A stretch of DNA of 25,432 nucleotides, taken from positions 1-25,432 of IMG/VR virus record IMGVR_UViG_3300032073_000222; one strand, 5' to 3'. Below, in pieces: positions 364-16,684 of the stretch (its first letter is position 1; each line of letters opens with the position of its first letter). Source of the stretch: a virus. The translations under genes and the position numbers were made by a program. The notes beneath the pieces are model-generated. The model saw nothing but the letters and a program-made list of their open reading frames with translations, had not been told where the DNA came from and ran no database searches.

Positions 364-469
364 GGTCGGCATCCTGCCCTCCGGGTGATGGCATGTAGAT
401 ATCACTCTGATATAACACTGACAGTATAGTTCCCTAAAGGGTTGGTAATCTGCAAGATTCTGCCAGACC
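364..469. ncRNA. Candidate structured RNA in a GC-rich intergenic block
   Basis: The non-coding gap between two convergent genes (335-597) contains a block much richer in G+C than its flanks. Its ends pair: GGTCGGCA at 364-371 with TGCCAGACC at 461-469 (eight pairs, one bulged A). Inside lie several short hairpins. CATC (370-373) pairs with GATG (387-390) around CCC/GGG (377-379/383-385), although this helix shares two bases with the closing stem. ATATCA (399-404) pairs with TGATAT (408-413), CCC (432-434) with GGG (439-441), and AATCT (447-451) with AGATT (455-459). The result resembles a multibranch RNA. The strand is undecided, because inverted repeats fold on both. It does not fit a tRNA, having no T-loop motif or CCA-end geometry. 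No family is recognised. Confidence 0.35.
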
Positions 470-501
470 TATTCGCATAATTCCTACGATTTTTAGGTAT
501 A

Positions 502-532
502 TAGTAATATATATTTATATATGTTTATACAA
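502..532 (-). promoter_or_regulatory. Possible host-type promoter reading into 469-364
   Basis: On the minus strand TTGT (529-532) is followed after 19 bases by TATTACTA (502-509). This is the spacing seen at other candidate promoters here, but the -7 box is a poorer match to TAnnTTTG. Transcription would start near 496 and run through the structured block. The region is extremely AT-rich, so a chance match is quite possible. Confidence 0.2.
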
Positions 533-597: not shown

Positions 598-798
598 TTA
601 TTGTTCGTCTCCATATTTTTCTATCCATTTACGTGTTTTAATGGCCTTTTGCTTGGCTTTTCTCTTCTTCATAGAGGGTTTTATATACTCCTTCTGTTCT
701 CTAATGGATTGAATCTGTTTGGTATTACGGACTTTCTGTTTATACCTCTTTAAGGCTCTCGTTATCTGTTCACCTTTCTTTACTTTAATTATTAACAT
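598..798 (-). CDS. rpsU: Phage-encoded ribosomal protein bS21
   Basis: This 66-residue basic protein matches small-subunit ribosomal protein bS21 over its whole length without gaps. It has the MLII start, VK-GE, RALKRYK (residues 14-20), IKPS (39-42) and a lysine/arginine-rich helical tail. bS21 sits on the 30S platform near the 16S rRNA 3' end and anti-SD. Phage copies of bS21 are known from marine phages and metagenomes. In Bacteroidota, bS21 helps hide the anti-SD; from memory, Tyr54 in Flavobacterium johnsoniae is part of that pocket. Here the ungapped alignment puts Lys at position 54. The gene is second in a minus-strand pair, 30 nt behind the 59-aa gene. No SD precedes its ATG (upstream bases are AAATAACTTAT), whereas cellular flavobacterial rpsU reportedly has a strong one. 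Confidence 0.93.
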   Translation of the reverse strand: MLIIKVKKGEQITRALKRYKQKVRNTKQIQSIREQKEYIKPSMKKRKAKQKAIKTRKWIEKYGDEQ

Positions 799-828
799 AT
801 AAGTTATTTACTATATATAGGCTATCTA

Positions 829-1008
829 TCATGTGGTCTCTGAGATTATACCCTCTTTGACTAGTTCTCTCCATGCTAAATTATATACATCAGACTGTTC
901 AGACCATTTATGTTGCGGTGCCGACCGGATTTTCTCGGCTCTTTTAAGTAGCTCTTCTCTTTTACCTTGAGCGTGTGCAGCATATAACATATCTTCTACT
1001 TGTGACAT
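829..1008 (-). CDS. Small hypothetical protein upstream of bS21
   Basis: This 59-residue ORF (ATG complement at 1006-1008, TGA complement at 829-831) begins MSQVEDMLYAAHAQGKREEL and ends EGIISETT. It is charged and probably mostly helical, with a conserved-looking core around SEQSDVYNLAWRELV. Support for it as a gene is its position: it is the first ORF behind a good candidate promoter on the same strand, is followed after 30 nt by bS21, and fills a gap otherwise without coding. No domain is recognised. Co-transcription with bS21 is inferred, and a translation-related role would be guesswork. Confidence 0.65.
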   Translation of the reverse strand: MSQVEDMLYAAHAQGKREELLKRAEKIRSAPQHKWSEQSDVYNLAWRELVKEGIISETT

Positions 1009-3158: not shown

Positions 3159-3479
3159 ATGAACATTAATCCTACTACATTTTACATAATTTCCGGAATA
3201 TTAGTTGGAATTACAATTATTTTATCATATATTATATATAATCTACTTAAGAAAGTAGAGAATTATGAAGATGTAACAACTAATCAAGCAAATTACTTAG
3301 TTAATGTATCTAATATAATAGTAGAATCACAAAAGCACCTAAACACACTTGACGAAAAAGGGGTTTTCAAGTCTGATGACGAGGTCGGTTATTTTTTTGA
3401 AAATTTAAAACTGATACAGAAAACGTTGGATCAATACCAACTACCCGAAAATTATGCCAAGAAAGAGATCAAAAGCTAA
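3159..3479 (+). CDS. Single-pass membrane protein with helical tail
   Basis: This 106-residue protein has one strong transmembrane helix (about residues 8-29, YIISGILVGITIILSYIIY) and then a charged helical, probably coiled-coil part (30-100) ending KKEIKS. There is no cleavable signal and no lipobox. The layout resembles small phage membrane proteins such as spanin-type or holin-associated subunits, but neighbours do not support a lysis cassette and no family is recognised. It starts one base after the HD gene stop, and its last 26 bases overlap the sigma-factor start, so the three are likely translated from one transcript. Confidence 0.65.
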   Translation: MNINPTTFYIISGILVGITIILSYIIYNLLKKVENYEDVTTNQANYLVNVSNIIVESQKHLNTLDEKGVFKSDDEVGYFFENLKLIQKTLDQYQLPENYAKKEIKS

Positions 3480-4158
3480 CTACTTTACAAAAGAAACTGA
3501 AGAATACATAAACAAATATAATGCCTCAGAAGATATTGAGTATAGAAACTCTATCTTTACCGAACACATCTACTTTCCCTTTTATAAACTAGCAGAGAAT
3601 ATTATACATACTTTTAAATTTTACTACACTGATGTAGATAAAATAGAAGATTTAAAGCATGAAATAGTCTCTATGTTACTTGAAGAGAAAATAATGAAAT
3701 TTGATAAAGACAATGGAGCTAAAGCTTATTCATACTTTGGTACGATTGTTAAAAGGTGGTTAATCAACTATAATAATAAGAATTATAAGAAACTAAAAAA
3801 GATAGGGAGTTTTGATGATATGGAAGACTCTTATGAAACTCCGTATATCAAGAACGAAGAACACTCTATATCCCTCAGTCAATTTTTAGATATGTATATT
3901 GACCATGCATATAGTATTTTAGATGAGGTATTTACTAAAGAAAGTGAAAGGAAGATAGCAGATGCTATATTAACTATATTTAGAACAAGACAAGATTTAG
4001 ATATATTTAAGAAAAAAGCTCTTTATATTTACATAAGAGAGATGACTGATTGTGAGACTCCACACCTTACTAAGGTAGTAAATAAGTTAAAAGAACAGTT
4101 TTACGTTCTATACGATAAATATAATGATGTAGGTTTAATTCGCACAAAAGAACTTTAA
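3454..4158 (+). CDS. 55: Late-transcription sigma factor, T4 gp55-like
   Basis: This 234-residue protein has the compact sigma region 2 arrangement of T4 gp55 and its relatives. A helical segment (about 63-80, KIEDLKHEIVSMLLEE) is followed by FDKDNGAKAYSYFGTIVKRW (83-102) and a basic patch (NYKKLKKI). In T4 the corresponding segment is [20 protein letters not shown]. gp55 directs host RNA polymerase to late promoters that have only a -10-type element. It needs the sliding clamp and co-activator gp33 for full activity. The C-terminus here (GLIRTKEL) does not resemble the clamp-binding tail of T4 gp55. The gene immediately precedes the structural block it would activate. The start overlaps the previous gene by 26 nt; a later start is possible but M1 fits the spacing. 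Confidence 0.8.
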   Translation: MPRKRSKANYFTKETEEYINKYNASEDIEYRNSIFTEHIYFPFYKLAENIIHTFKFYYTDVDKIEDLKHEIVSMLLEEKIMKFDKDNGAKAYSYFGTIVKRWLINYNNKNYKKLKKIGSFDDMEDSYETPYIKNEEHSISLSQFLDMYIDHAYSILDEVFTKESERKIADAILTIFRTRQDLDIFKKKALYIYIREMTDCETPHLTKVVNKLKEQFYVLYDKYNDVGLIRTKEL

Positions 4159-11305: not shown

Positions 11306-14300
11306 ATGGCTAACGTAACATATGAAATATTAGATGAGAATTTAAACTCATTTCCAGATATAGAAAAATTTTCTGATAAAGATTTAAGTCTTATAGATAA
11401 TTTCACTATTAATAAAGGGTATGACTTTAACAAACATTACATAGAGACGCATTTCTACTCAGTAAATAATGTAAGGCTTTTTTCATCGTATGATTACAAA
11501 CTACCAATTCCTAACCTAACCGCAGATGGAGAACTTTCAACAGAAATTAATGTTGATCCTGCCAGCATCGCTAGAGAGTTTGGTTTTTCTAGATCTGATA
11601 TAAAAATCCTTTTTCATTTTCTAAATGACCTATTTACAACAGGTAAGGATAAGAAAGAATTATACATTCAACAGATTTCTAAAGATAGAACTGAAGTTCT
11701 ACTCTACTCAGAAAAACTTACAACTAACGAATTAATAAATAAAACAGAAGAACTAAAAGATAAATTAAATTCAGATAGCTTCTTTGATGAGTTCCTTTTA
11801 AACCTTGGTGATAATGACCTGTTTATAGTAACTAATATAGATACTTGGGAATTAGATAATAAATTTACTATAGCATTAAAGTTATACGAACCTCTACCTG
11901 ACAAATATGAACTAAAAGAAAAAGCACAGCTAGTACGTAAAGTTGCAGACTCTATAGCAGTAAAGGTATTAGCAGATGTTGTTCTTGATCCACCTACAGT
12001 TCCTAAACTTAGAGGACCTAATTTTACAGCAAAAACTACTGATAGTGAAGCAGAACCAACACAATACTTTAATTTTGACGACTTATTTAGTTTCTCTAAC
12101 ACAAATAGTAATAGAGAACTACTATCAACTATAAGAGATAAAAGTATAGATTTAGGTATAGATTATAGTAGCTATGATAACTTTATACACTTTTCTTCTG
12201 CTGAAGAAAGACTGAAGAACTTCAGGTATAAGGTACAGCTACTAGAGACTTATCAAGCAGATCTAAACTCAGAAGAAGCATTATTAAACACGAGTACAAC
12301 AGCTACTAGCGGAAGTATTGAAGCTACTAAAAACTTAATAAAGGGTGTTATAGATAATTTTGACCACTACGAAAGACATTTATACTTTGAAAGTGGTTCT
12401 GTAAACTGGCCAAAGAGTAATACTACAAAGCCGTTTGTTAATCTACATACAACATCTTCTGATGCTATTACTTGGTATAACCAACAGCTTACTAGTGCAT
12501 CAAATTATGATGTAAGAAATTATGATTTACTAACTAATTTCTTGCCTGAATACTTAGCAGATGATTCAAATAATGCTAATGGGCTTTTATTTACTCATAT
12601 GATTGGTCATCATTTTGACAATTTATGGATATACACAAAAGCCATTACAGATAAATACGATACAGATCACAGATTAAATGTAGGTATATCTAAAGATTTA
12701 GTTCAAGAAGCAGTAAAGAGTTTAGGTATAAAAATACACAACTCTAAAGAAGGATCTAATGATTTATTTAAGTACTTTATTAATGATAGTTACGATAGTG
12801 GGAGTATAGGTGAAGTTGTTAACACATTTAATAGTTCTGGAAGACCTACAGTTTCTAATAAAGATTATGAAGCTGAAGTATATAAAAGATTATATCATAA
12901 TATCCCCCTACTTTTAAAATCTAAAGGAACCAAAAGAGGATTAAGAGCACTTATAAATTGCTTTGGAGTACCTAGTAATTTCTTAAAAATTAGAACTTTC
13001 GGTGGAGAACCTTTTGACAAACCTAGATACTCAGGACCGGATTTTGAAGTTACTGATCAACTTACTAAAATTACACACGCTTCTGGTAGTACAGATGGAC
13101 ATGTTTTGACTCAAAACACATCTATTTTTAGACAACAAGAATTAACCTCACCTGATCAACATAGACTTGAAGTTGGATTTTCCCCTTCTAATGCTATAAA
13201 TGCAATGATAACAGCATCCCTTGGTGCTAATTTTAATATAGACGATTGGATTGGAGATCCAAGAGACCTATACGACTCATCGTATAACGAGGTATACCCT
13301 TTCTTCGGTAATACTAGCTTAGAAGCCTATAGAAATGGAATTCTTATACAGAACACAGCTGGGTACCCTTATCTAGATCCACCTAACTTAAAAGACTTTG
13401 TAAGATCATTTAAATTTTACGATAATGTACTCTTTAAAATGATCAAAGATTTTGTACCTGCTAGAGTTTCATTAGATACTGGAATTATAATCAAACCTCA
13501 TTTACTAGAAAGAAGTAAAATAAAATCACCGGTAGTAACAGGTGTAGATGAAACATATTCAGGTAGTATGTCAACAGCATTTATGTCCGGTTCTTCAGGA
13601 GGAGGTTACAATGATTTAGATATAACTGCTGATGGTTTTCAAGAATCTAGACTTAAACATATAGAAGCACCTTGGCCTGGAACTATAGGAGGACACTCAG
13701 ACCTACAGTTTAGAGTTAATTTTAGAACTGATATAGAAAGAGGAGATGATGGTGAAATAATAGTAGAAGGAAATGATTTTTACCATCCTGATGGTACATA
13801 CTATAATATAAGAGAAGTAAATTACGCAACAAACCCACCAAGAAGTAAACTTATAGGAACTCCGTATGAAAACGGAAACATAGCAGGTAACACCTCTGGT
13901 GAATTTGATTTCTATGTTATGTTTACTTCTGAATCTAGAATACAGAGATTCCCTACACTAACACAAGGTAACGGTGGAAGTCTTACCAATTGGCACCATG
14001 AACACTTAATAGCTATAGACTATAGTCCACACGGACAAAACATGTGGGTAGCAAGAGGTAACGCAGCAGTTAATAGTGCTTCTTTCGCACCACTTAAAAG
14101 TGATGTAATAGTTGCAGCATTTACACATTCTGGTTCTAATGCAGAACCTTCATTTGGAATTAATACCGAAAGATTTAGATTCTTCAATTCTTTATCCGGG
14201 TATGTAATGAATACACCTACCACAGCTTCTACAGAGATAGTAATGGCACCAAGAACTGGTAGTGCAATATTAGGTGTAGTGAGTATTATTTCAACAGCAG

Positions 14301-16684
14301 GTAATCAACAAAACTTCCACGGTACTACAGGTACTCCTTTTACAACTTATGGAGGAGGAATAACTTTCTCCGCTAATGTAAGTGCAGCACAAAGAGCTGA
14401 ATCACTTCGAGGAGCTATAACATCTAGTAATTCAGCCATTAAAAATGACTTTAGGTTTACTAAAAAAACAACTTATGAACAAGATGATACTTTAGTACTT
14501 CATCAAAAAGTAGCAGGGACAGCAGGTAATACAAAAATAACTGCCTATTCACAGGCTTATGGAGCTAATATACTAACAGCATCATTTGAACCAAACGACT
14601 TTGTAGGAGGTGCTGATAATTTTAAAACCTACGGTAGAATAAACGATACAACATTTTATGCTGATACTATAACGACTAAGAGTGGTTCTGTAAGTAAGTT
14701 AGTAGGAGATGAATCACCTAAATTTAATGGTGAATTAAGCGGCAGCCAAATTACTCTAACAGACGGGGAATTGAACAGAGATAACCCTTTTAAAAGACAA
14801 CAACACCCACAGACTTTGTTCCATATAACAACTGTTAACCAAACCGTTGCAGATATATTAACACCTGTACTTGTAATGAATACAGGCACTGATCCATCAG
14901 AATACTCATCTAACACAGCTGCATGTGCAGCATTTCTAATATCAGATGCCACTAACTTTTATCATGGAGGTTCTGGTACAGTACCGGTCGATGGTGATAT
15001 ACTATATTACGATATTAATGGTGTTAACCCCGTTACATCTGTAGAAAATAACGACTTTATTTCTTTTGCAGTAGATGTGAATGGAACACTGACAAGCTAC
15101 ACAGCAAAAGTATCAGCATCAGGTGACCCAGGTGAAATGTACGGTATTACAGCCTGTAGTGCTCTCGATACAACAGCACCTACAGGTTATACAGCAGCAT
15201 GGCAAAACTCACAAATAACCGCAGCAAATGTTTCAGCCGTACCATGTGGCGTATTTGGAACTGTGGAAGCAAATGCTACAATGTTTGCTACTGCATCTGA
15301 TCAGAGTAATAATAAGGTATTAAAAGAAGTAAACACTGGAGGTAGTGGAGGTGGTTTTATGTTTAATATGGACTGTTCTACATTAGATGATGGAGAAAAC
15401 GTAACAATCGATGTAAAATTGAGAGATGCAGCAGGTAATGCAGGTTCCTCAGCAGCAGCACATACAGGTTTTGGTACTAATTTTGGATTAACGATACCTA
15501 AGCAGGTAGCAGCTCCTTCAGGCTACTCTATACACGGAGGCTGTTTTAGAATTCAAGAAGCAGCAGGATTATTTGGAGCTTCTGGTCCTACACAAAGTGC
15601 CAATTATACTGCGAAGTATAATTTAGTAGTACATTATGATGTACATTTCTCTGGTCAAATAAATTATCAGCTTTCCGGATCTCATGGACATACACAAATA
15701 ATATCAGATTCAATACTAGTAGTTAGTGGTGCAAGTCCAACACCTGGTACTGCCAGTATTTTTGTAACTGACGATAATAGTGCTTACGGGACAGGTAACT
15801 ATATGATATCAAACACAGGCTCAGGCGGCTGGAACCAGAATGCTGGTAATACAGTTAAGGGTTTTGTATGGTTAACAGATGGAAATAGTAATAACGGACC
15901 TGTAGTTTCTGCATCAGTAAGCTACTACCCTTACATTTTCCAATTCTGGGACTCGAACAGTCAGGTGCAAACTAGTATTTCGGTTTCACATTTCGCTCAA
16001 TCTGCTAATATGTCCATCGTATCACGAGGTAGTGCCGCACAGGCATTAGTAGGAACAAACCCAGACCCTACATTCTTTACTGTAGAGACAACAGATTTTG
16101 GTGCTAATAATGATCAAATATACGGTAACTCACCCGTACAGTTTTCAATACAGCAAAATACATCTGGTGCAAGATCTGCAATGACAAAAATTACAAAGAC
16201 TAACACACAAGATAATTACACATACACTTTCGGTAACTCTGCTGGAGGTAGTTCACCTAACCTTATTATCTCTCAACAGACTAATCTTAGTTGTGTAGAC
16301 CCTGACGTATTGATTTTAATGAAAACAGGTAATCAAAAGAAAGCATCAGAACTTAAAGTTGGAGATGTAATAAGAAGTAAGCATGAACTTTCAAAAGAAT
16401 TACTTGAAGATATAATAATAAAAGCAACATCAGCATCAGGACAAAATAAACTAAAGTTAATATTTGATGACGATACTGATTTAATTACTTCTATAAAACA
16501 TAGGGTATATTTAGATAAAGTTGATGATTTCGTATCTGTAGATTCTCTTGAAGTAGGAGACATAGTATCCGGTAAGGTAATAGAGATTATAGAAGAATGT
16601 GAGGACGGAACAGTAATAGAAATAACAACAGAGAAAACACATACATATATTAGTAATGGAGTTTTATCTCACAACGGTAAATAA
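11306..16684 (+). CDS. Giant baseplate/adhesin protein with C-terminal Hint domain
   Basis: This 1792-residue protein is the largest gene here. The N-terminal third looks like a baseplate wedge component: LLTNFLPEYLADDSN (about 408) and HIGHHFDNLWIYTKAI-type helices are followed by YKRLYHNIPLLLKSKGTKRG and LRALINCFGVPSNFLKI (about 525-565). From about 770 it turns beta-rich (FRVNFRTDIERGDDGE, NWHHEHLIAIDYSPHG), as in lectin-like folds. At about 1286-1398 there is an Ig-like adhesin repeat (DTTAPTGYTAAW, later NVTIDVKLRDAAGNAG). Residues 1663-1792 form a Hint domain, described separately. The protein may link baseplate to fibres and contact the cell surface. No frameshift is seen. The start follows the previous stop by 5 nt. 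Confidence 0.75.
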   Translation: MANVTYEILDENLNSFPDIEKFSDKDLSLIDNFTINKGYDFNKHYIETHFYSVNNVRLFSSYDYKLPIPNLTADGELSTEINVDPASIAREFGFSRSDIKILFHFLNDLFTTGKDKKELYIQQISKDRTEVLLYSEKLTTNELINKTEELKDKLNSDSFFDEFLLNLGDNDLFIVTNIDTWELDNKFTIALKLYEPLPDKYELKEKAQLVRKVADSIAVKVLADVVLDPPTVPKLRGPNFTAKTTDSEAEPTQYFNFDDLFSFSNTNSNRELLSTIRDKSIDLGIDYSSYDNFIHFSSAEERLKNFRYKVQLLETYQADLNSEEALLNTSTTATSGSIEATKNLIKGVIDNFDHYERHLYFESGSVNWPKSNTTKPFVNLHTTSSDAITWYNQQLTSASNYDVRNYDLLTNFLPEYLADDSNNANGLLFTHMIGHHFDNLWIYTKAITDKYDTDHRLNVGISKDLVQEAVKSLGIKIHNSKEGSNDLFKYFINDSYDSGSIGEVVNTFNSSGRPTVSNKDYEAEVYKRLYHNIPLLLKSKGTKRGLRALINCFGVPSNFLKIRTFGGEPFDKPRYSGPDFEVTDQLTKITHASGSTDGHVLTQNTSIFRQQELTSPDQHRLEVGFSPSNAINAMITASLGANFNIDDWIGDPRDLYDSSYNEVYPFFGNTSLEAYRNGILIQNTAGYPYLDPPNLKDFVRSFKFYDNVLFKMIKDFVPARVSLDTGIIIKPHLLERSKIKSPVVTGVDETYSGSMSTAFMSGSSGGGYNDLDITADGFQESRLKHIEAPWPGTIGGHSDLQFRVNFRTDIERGDDGEIIVEGNDFYHPDGTYYNIREVNYATNPPRSKLIGTPYENGNIAGNTSGEFDFYVMFTSESRIQRFPTLTQGNGGSLTNWHHEHLIAIDYSPHGQNMWVARGNAAVNSASFAPLKSDVIVAAFTHSGSNAEPSFGINTERFRFFNSLSGYVMNTPTTASTEIVMAPRTGSAILGVVSIISTAGNQQNFHGTTGTPFTTYGGGITFSANVSAAQRAESLRGAITSSNSAIKNDFRFTKKTTYEQDDTLVLHQKVAGTAGNTKITAYSQAYGANILTASFEPNDFVGGADNFKTYGRINDTTFYADTITTKSGSVSKLVGDESPKFNGELSGSQITLTDGELNRDNPFKRQQHPQTLFHITTVNQTVADILTPVLVMNTGTDPSEYSSNTAACAAFLISDATNFYHGGSGTVPVDGDILYYDINGVNPVTSVENNDFISFAVDVNGTLTSYTAKVSASGDPGEMYGITACSALDTTAPTGYTAAWQNSQITAANVSAVPCGVFGTVEANATMFATASDQSNNKVLKEVNTGGSGGGFMFNMDCSTLDDGENVTIDVKLRDAAGNAGSSAAAHTGFGTNFGLTIPKQVAAPSGYSIHGGCFRIQEAAGLFGASGPTQSANYTAKYNLVVHYDVHFSGQINYQLSGSHGHTQIISDSILVVSGASPTPGTASIFVTDDNSAYGTGNYMISNTGSGGWNQNAGNTVKGFVWLTDGNSNNGPVVSASVSYYPYIFQFWDSNSQVQTSISVSHFAQSANMSIVSRGSAAQALVGTNPDPTFFTVETTDFGANNDQIYGNSPVQFSIQQNTSGARSAMTKITKTNTQDNYTYTFGNSAGGSSPNLIISQQTNLSCVDPDVLILMKTGNQKKASELKVGDVIRSKHELSKELLEDIIIKATSASGQNKLKLIFDDDTDLITSIKHRVYLDKVDDFVSVDSLEVGDIVSGKVIEIIEECEDGTVIEITTEKTHTYISNGVLSHNGK
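16292..16684 (+). other. Hint (intein-like) domain ending the baseplate protein
   Basis: These 130 residues (1663-1792) show all main Hint blocks. The N-terminal catalytic Cys1663 lies in SCVDPDVLILMKTG, with ASELKVGDVI completing block A. A block B-like ITSIKH carries the His. SLEVGDIVSGKVIEI is a second core strand pair. Block F is GTVIEITTEKTHTYIS, and block G is NGVLSHNG, with His1789-Asn1790. After Asn only Gly-Lys remains, so there is no Cys/Ser/Thr at +1 and no real C-extein. Normal splicing is not expected. N-terminal thioester formation and cleavage, or Asn cyclisation, remain possible, as in bacterial intein-like domains. No homing endonuclease is inserted. Confidence 0.85.

Follow-up and report, generated by a model that had tools for sequence, protein, structure and literature searches.

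Tyr54 of ribosomal protein bS21 has been treated as a hallmark of the sequestration of the anti-Shine-Dalgarno (anti-SD) sequence in Bacteroidota, and also of phage bS21 proteins that are fitted to the ribosomes of these bacteria. In Flavobacterium johnsoniae this residue, stacked on A1534, directs the 3' tail of 16S rRNA into a pocket formed by bS21, bS18 and bS6, and a strain with bS21(Y54A) is viable and gives higher output from strong-SD reporters (McNutt 2023, PMC9976891). All 61 phage bS21 proteins analysed by Chen (2022, PMC9723584) have an aromatic residue at position 54 (Tyr, His or Phe) and may work like host bS21. The locus described here encodes a phage bS21 with Lys at this position, which raises the question whether ribosomes carrying it would expose the anti-SD or keep it hidden by other means. 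A sequence-only reading of the same DNA, in which the role given to Tyr54 agrees with McNutt (2023), had favoured the former, suggesting an altered pocket and reprogrammed or tagged ribosomes; replacement of host bS21 and ribosome tagging have already been proposed for phage bS21 generally (PMC9723584, PMC6375957).

The window, i.e. the whole stretch of DNA that was analysed, is a fragment of 25,432 bases from a marine virus. Since it also carries baseplate and tail fibre genes, the bS21 gene is a phage gene. The features of interest are:

598 to 798, minus strand: phage rpsU-like gene encoding a bS21 of 66 amino acids (open reading frame, Pfam, PHROG, alignments)
637 to 639 (complement), minus strand: codon 54, AAA, Lys, at the position of F. 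johnsoniae Tyr54 (sequence and alignment)
625 to 627 (complement), minus strand: codon 58, TGG, Trp, an aromatic residue one helix turn on (sequence and alignments)
799 to 828, minus strand: region upstream of the bS21 start, without SD (duplex energy +0.6 kcal/mol)
829 to 1008, minus strand: open reading frame of 59 amino acids just upstream of bS21, with relatives in phages L002 (68%) and G777/G780 (51%)

The bS21 frame runs on the minus strand from an ATG at 798 down to 598 and gives the product MLIIKVKKGEQITRALKRYKQKVRNTKQIQSIREQKEYIKPSMKKRKAKQKAIKTRKWIEKYGDEQ, while the plus strand of the same segment contains stops. The protein matches the Pfam family Ribosomal_S21 (PF01165; E 1e-12, 48 bits at a cut-off of 27, residues 4-56) and PHROG 21469, 'ribosomal protein S21' (E 2.5e-7). 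Its closest solved relative is F. johnsoniae bS21 (7JIL chain z), to which it aligns ungapped over residues 1-53 (phmmer, E 3.8e-10), and in a MAFFT alignment the ungapped register extends through residue 54, which is Tyr in F. johnsoniae and Lys in the window. The ungapped alignment and the Lys at the Tyr54 position, both claimed from the sequence alone, are thus confirmed. An AF2 model contains three helices (12-26, 28-36 and 41-65) in a plan that resembles solved bS21, and the top PDB matches in a fold comparison are bS21 chains (best E 0.07, TM 0.6-0.8). Residues 54 and 58 lie within the single continuous helix 41-65 (pLDDT about 91-92). With a spacing of i+4 in a helix, they are one turn (about 6 angstroms) apart and point to nearly the same face. 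Trp58 was overlooked in the sequence-only reading but belongs to the same story.

The named best matches of the protein in genome contigs are Bacteroidota records, in agreement with the Bacteroidota type assigned earlier, and its top bacterial matches are the Y54 bS21 proteins of Lutibacter and Lewinella. An origin outside the Bacteroidota was rejected on the basis of these best named bacterial matches. The putative assignment of the phage to Bacteroidota rests on the bS21 matches, on the visual similarity of a lipoprotein signal to those of Bacteroidota and on genes without SD. The protein resembles the Bacteroidetes-phage bS21 clades a-e of Chen et al. (2022, PMC9723584) in being of Bacteroidota type and encoded on the strand opposite to late structural genes (here the bS21 gene is on the minus strand and the adjacent structural genes are on the plus strand), the phages being in both cases large, myovirus-like and aquatic. 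It differs in having Lys54 with Trp58 instead of an aromatic residue 54, and in its small neighbour gene on the same strand as bS21. Furthermore, the neighbours in the phages of Chen et al. are terminase, portal, protease and capsid genes, whereas those in the window are baseplate and tail genes only, and the others may lie beyond the fragment, which begins close to bS21. Searches for tRNAs and Rfam families across the window gave no match.

Lys54 is kept in the close relatives L002/L003 (89% identical) and L004 (82%), and the more distant phage proteins include three with Lys54 and one with Met54. The 39 nucleotide differences between the bS21 genes of the window and L002 are distributed 5, 4 and 30 over the codon positions, and dN/dS is about 0.05-0.2 where computable. 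Because third-position changes dominate and dN/dS is this low, the gene is considered to be under purifying selection, as stated for the close relatives below. Judged from these comparisons, Lys54 is not a chance substitution, being kept in close relatives under such selection, and the protein is an exception to the rule published for Bacteroidetes phages, whose 61 examined bS21 proteins all have an aromatic residue 54.

To what extent residue 58 accompanies this change is indicated by a survey of 56 distinct phage and 114 distinct bacterial full-length bS21 proteins, collected by four IMG/VR scans and by scans of bacterial genomes. Residue 54 is Tyr in 46, Lys in six, His in three and Met in one of the phage proteins; in the bacterial set the numbers are 103 Tyr, seven His, two Phe, one Lys and one Gln. 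The weak matches in deposited phages, which came from huge phages and a single gut contig, turned out on checking to have Tyr54. An aromatic residue 58 (Trp, Tyr or Phe) is present in all nine proteins without an aromatic residue 54 (seven phage, two bacterial) as compared to 29 of the 161 others. The association (Fisher p 7e-6 for phages, 0.047 for bacteria) is uncorrected for kinship, and as the phage members are kin, these statistics overstate the number of events and the association rests on two to three independent ones. Tabulation of residue 54, as the sequence-only reading had suggested, thus confirmed Lys54 as real, but it also revealed in every protein lacking aromatic 54 an aromatic residue on the same helix face, which speaks against an opened pocket. 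Six phages (the sister phages L198-L208) have both, with Tyr or His at 54 and an aromatic residue at 58. Since phages with Tyr54 need no aromatic 58, this residue could also have another reason.

Within the lineage of the window, the 13 distinct bS21 proteins all have an aromatic residue 58, while their residue 54 is Lys, Met, His or Tyr. The lineage is defined by more than bS21: the baseplate, sigma-like, HD-hydrolase and lipoprotein genes of the window are common to L002, L004, G777, G780, G781, G782 and G783, and the Tyr54 phages G785-G792 share hardly any of them. A tree based on five other phage proteins places the K54 and the H/Y54 members in one lineage, with on one side the window, L002 and L004 (54/58: K/W), G777 (K/Y) with G780 (M/Y), and G781 (K/Y), and on the other side G782 (K/F) with G783 (H/F) and G784 (Y/F). 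The constancy of an aromatic 58 next to a variable 54 suggests that it is position 58 that is constrained in this lineage, leaving residue 54 free. It is reasonably secure that the swap arose at least twice independently, once in phages and once in a bacterial family (support 0.976). A third origin, with G782 separate from the branch of the window, is likely, the alternative being one loss followed by regain.

We consider it fairly probable that in the bS21 of the window, otherwise an ordinary phage protein of Bacteroidota type, the aromatic residue packing on the 16S 3' tail has moved from position 54 to position 58, so that the anti-SD would be kept hidden; the grip on the tail was probably moved rather than lost. 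A competing explanation is that Lys54 is a product of neutral drift without function, the protein being needed only for its indispensable N-terminal bS21 part or acting off the ribosome, and that the aromatic 58 is hitch-hiking ancestry. Such drift would fit the variability of the C-terminal residues of bS21 (PMC9723584), the growth of F. johnsoniae without bS21 residues 43-64 (PMC9976891) and the fact that the phage cases belong to one lineage. Nevertheless, we regard it as rather unlikely, since residue 58 stays Phe, Tyr or Trp while its neighbours and residue 54 change, since the same pairing arose separately in the bacterial family, and since the gene is under purifying selection.

The sequence-only reading had also considered that host bS21 might itself lack Tyr54. 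A profile of the K54 proteins, used against 395 Bacteroidia genomes, gave among the best 30 loci one K54/Y58 protein, in the flavobacterial genome G171 (L302), where it is the sole bS21. The gene is followed by a tyrosine recombinase gene and an HPF-like gene, which corresponds to the standard rpsU-xerC-hpf neighbourhood. Proteins of the same family have Q54/Y58 (G201, L329), Y54/F58 (L328) or Y54/M58, so that one bacterial family, too, shows both aromatic residues as well as 58 alone. Bacterial bS21 without Tyr54 therefore does exist, in a single-copy canonical rpsU as well as in G201, but neither bacterium is tied to the phage as its host. The two proteins resemble that of the window in having an aromatic residue at 58 and none at 54, whereas they differ from it in being chromosomally encoded and in sequence (about 40% identity by inspection). 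The bS18 proteins of G171 and G201 are, by inspection, much like those of Tyr54 relatives, and a pattern search for 16S 3' ends in the K54/Q54 bacterial genomes found none.

These bacteria make it conceivable that the phage copy mirrors a host whose own bS21 has a non-aromatic residue 54 (Lys or other) and an aromatic 58. K54 appears to be rare, however, since a DNA pattern for it matched no bS21 beyond that of G171 in 395 Bacteroidota genomes, a search that may miss K54 genes with different flanking residues, and the best bacterial matches of the phage protein are the Y54 proteins mentioned above. Host matching is thus unlikely in our judgement, and it is compatible with a shifted aromatic residue rather than an alternative to it. 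Apart from the K54 state, most of the checked genomes among Flavobacteriia G001-G019 hold two to four bS21 paralogues, of which one is canonical; the non-canonical ones are closer to the phage type and lack a strong SD, and may be phage-derived or the source of phage copies.

If the aromatic residue has indeed shifted, the following course of events can be envisaged. The phage bS21, being of Bacteroidota origin, would be made in infected cells and built into the host 30S subunit in place of host bS21. Entry of a phage bS21 into ribosomes is known by analogy, from another protein only: that of Pelagibacter phage HTVC008M enters E. coli ribosomes (Mizuno et al. 2019, PMC6375957), and this phage protein is of the alphaproteobacterial type and was tested in an SD-using bacterium. 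An aromatic residue may have arisen at position 58 of the C-terminal helix in an ancestor of the lineage, after which residues 54 and 58 could both pack on the 3' tail. Residue 54 would then have been free to change, giving Lys54 in the branch of the window, with Tyr or Trp at 58. Intermediates with both aromatic residues (L198-L208, and L328 with Y54/F58) support such a stepwise move. In the Lys54/Trp58 protein, Trp58 would do the job of Tyr54 by stacking on or beside A1534, one turn along. As compared to F. johnsoniae bS21, with which the protein shares the three-helix plan and the ungapped residues 1-53 (7JIL; PMC9976891), Lys54 replaces Tyr54 and Trp58 replaces Leu58. The anti-SD would stay sequestered and the ribosome tuned to SD-less mRNAs, as are the phage's own genes. 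A further possibility is that the 3' tail is gripped again in a shifted register, with Trp58 for Tyr54 and with Lys54 on the RNA backbone, that mRNA choice differs from that of the host by non-SD means, and that phage ribosomes form a distinct functional class during infection; we see this as quite unlikely.

The use of SD sequences by the organisms concerned was compared by counting strong SDs, defined as a pairing of -5 kcal/mol or better, with expectations derived from shuffled leaders; start codons were set as the first ATG, which blurs the counts. No enrichment was found in the K54/M54 phages (12 of 211 genes, 16.4 expected), nor in the K54/Y58 bacterium G171 (6 of 100, 7.2 expected) or the Q54/Y58 bacterium G201 (12 of 114, 9.2 expected). 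Tyr54 phages had strong SDs in 13 of 200 genes (8.5 expected, rows summed), and phage T4, used as a control in the same test, showed clear enrichment (27 of 42 genes, 8.3 expected). The absence of SDs from the phage genes argues only indirectly against an opened anti-SD, because any Bacteroidota phage shows the same. That Lys54 un-stacks A1534 and frees the anti-SD, phage mRNAs with an SD or special leaders outcompeting those of the host, is nonetheless very improbable: it would agree with the Lys itself, with the increase in strong-SD reporters and the about threefold in vitro yield on rpsU mRNA caused by Y54A in F. johnsoniae (PMC9976891), and with a Lys at the equivalent place in Borrelia bS21, for whose pocket a weaker hold on the tail has been suggested (PMC10618245), but it is opposed by the aromatic 58 in every case without aromatic 54, by the occurrence of K54/Y58 in an SD-blind bacterium, by the lack of SD enrichment in K54 phages, and by the fact that loss of Y54 in F. 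johnsoniae profits very strong SDs only, the strongest in the window being -6.0 kcal/mol.

The earlier proposal of an opened pocket favouring SD-bearing mRNAs is accordingly unsupported; its observation was right and its significance partly misread. The bS21 genes themselves also differ in their leaders: the best SD before a phage bS21 gene is -4.8 kcal/mol (n=34), as compared to values stronger than -13 kcal/mol before 20 of 73 bacterial genes, and the gene of the window lacks the extended autoregulatory SD of F. johnsoniae. This difference fits an escape of the phage gene from the SD-dependent autoregulation of host bS21, which it might achieve because it is without the strong SD of host rpsU.

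The phage lineage and the bacterial family together show that Lys, Met or Gln can occupy position 54 when residue 58 is aromatic, which corrects the literature rule on residue 54 and predicts a compensating contact. If the shift is true, the phage protein is predicted to keep the anti-SD hidden. Single-residue swaps in phage ribosomal proteins should therefore not be read as reprogramming.

Several other features of the window deserve mention. The 59-residue frame upstream of bS21 differs from that of L002 at 11, 6 and 9 sites by codon position (dS 0.11, dN 0.16), i.e. mostly by non-synonymous changes, unlike the adjacent bS21 gene; this pattern may reflect diversifying change, relaxed constraint or constraint at the DNA level. 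Directly downstream of the bS21 gene, about 150 noncoding bases (380-530, minus strand) are conserved above the level of neighbouring proteins. This stretch has an AT-rich start like TATAAATA, followed by a conserved part that contains ACCAACCCTTTAGGGAACTATACTGTCAGTGTTATATCA; the core of the stretch recurs in 23 viral contig stretches, from many of which bS21 is absent. A structured RNA was rejected, as stability did not exceed that of shuffles on either strand, 12 sequences gave no covariation and there was no Rfam family; the stretch is perhaps a promoter plus small RNA, or a DNA site. In the gene at 1639-2280 of this otherwise AT-rich phage, a GC-rich run, CTTCGCGCGTTTCGCGCGGCGGCGTC, lies in the lipoprotein signal peptide (1668-1694), and a 21-base core of it is identical in L002, L003 and L004 and also occurs in three further viral contigs. 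The 234-residue protein encoded at 3454-4158 is 89-96% identical in the close lineage and is also found, at 26-31% identity, in the unrelated bS21 phages G785, G786 and G788; it looks like a phage sigma factor by eye and has no Pfam or PHROG family match. Finally, the tail-region protein of 1792 residues encoded at 11306-16684 has a C-terminal Hint/intein-like domain (residues 1675-1790; PF14890, E 2.8e-6, below cut-off), which ends with a final HN that is followed only by Gly-Lys and the stop codon.
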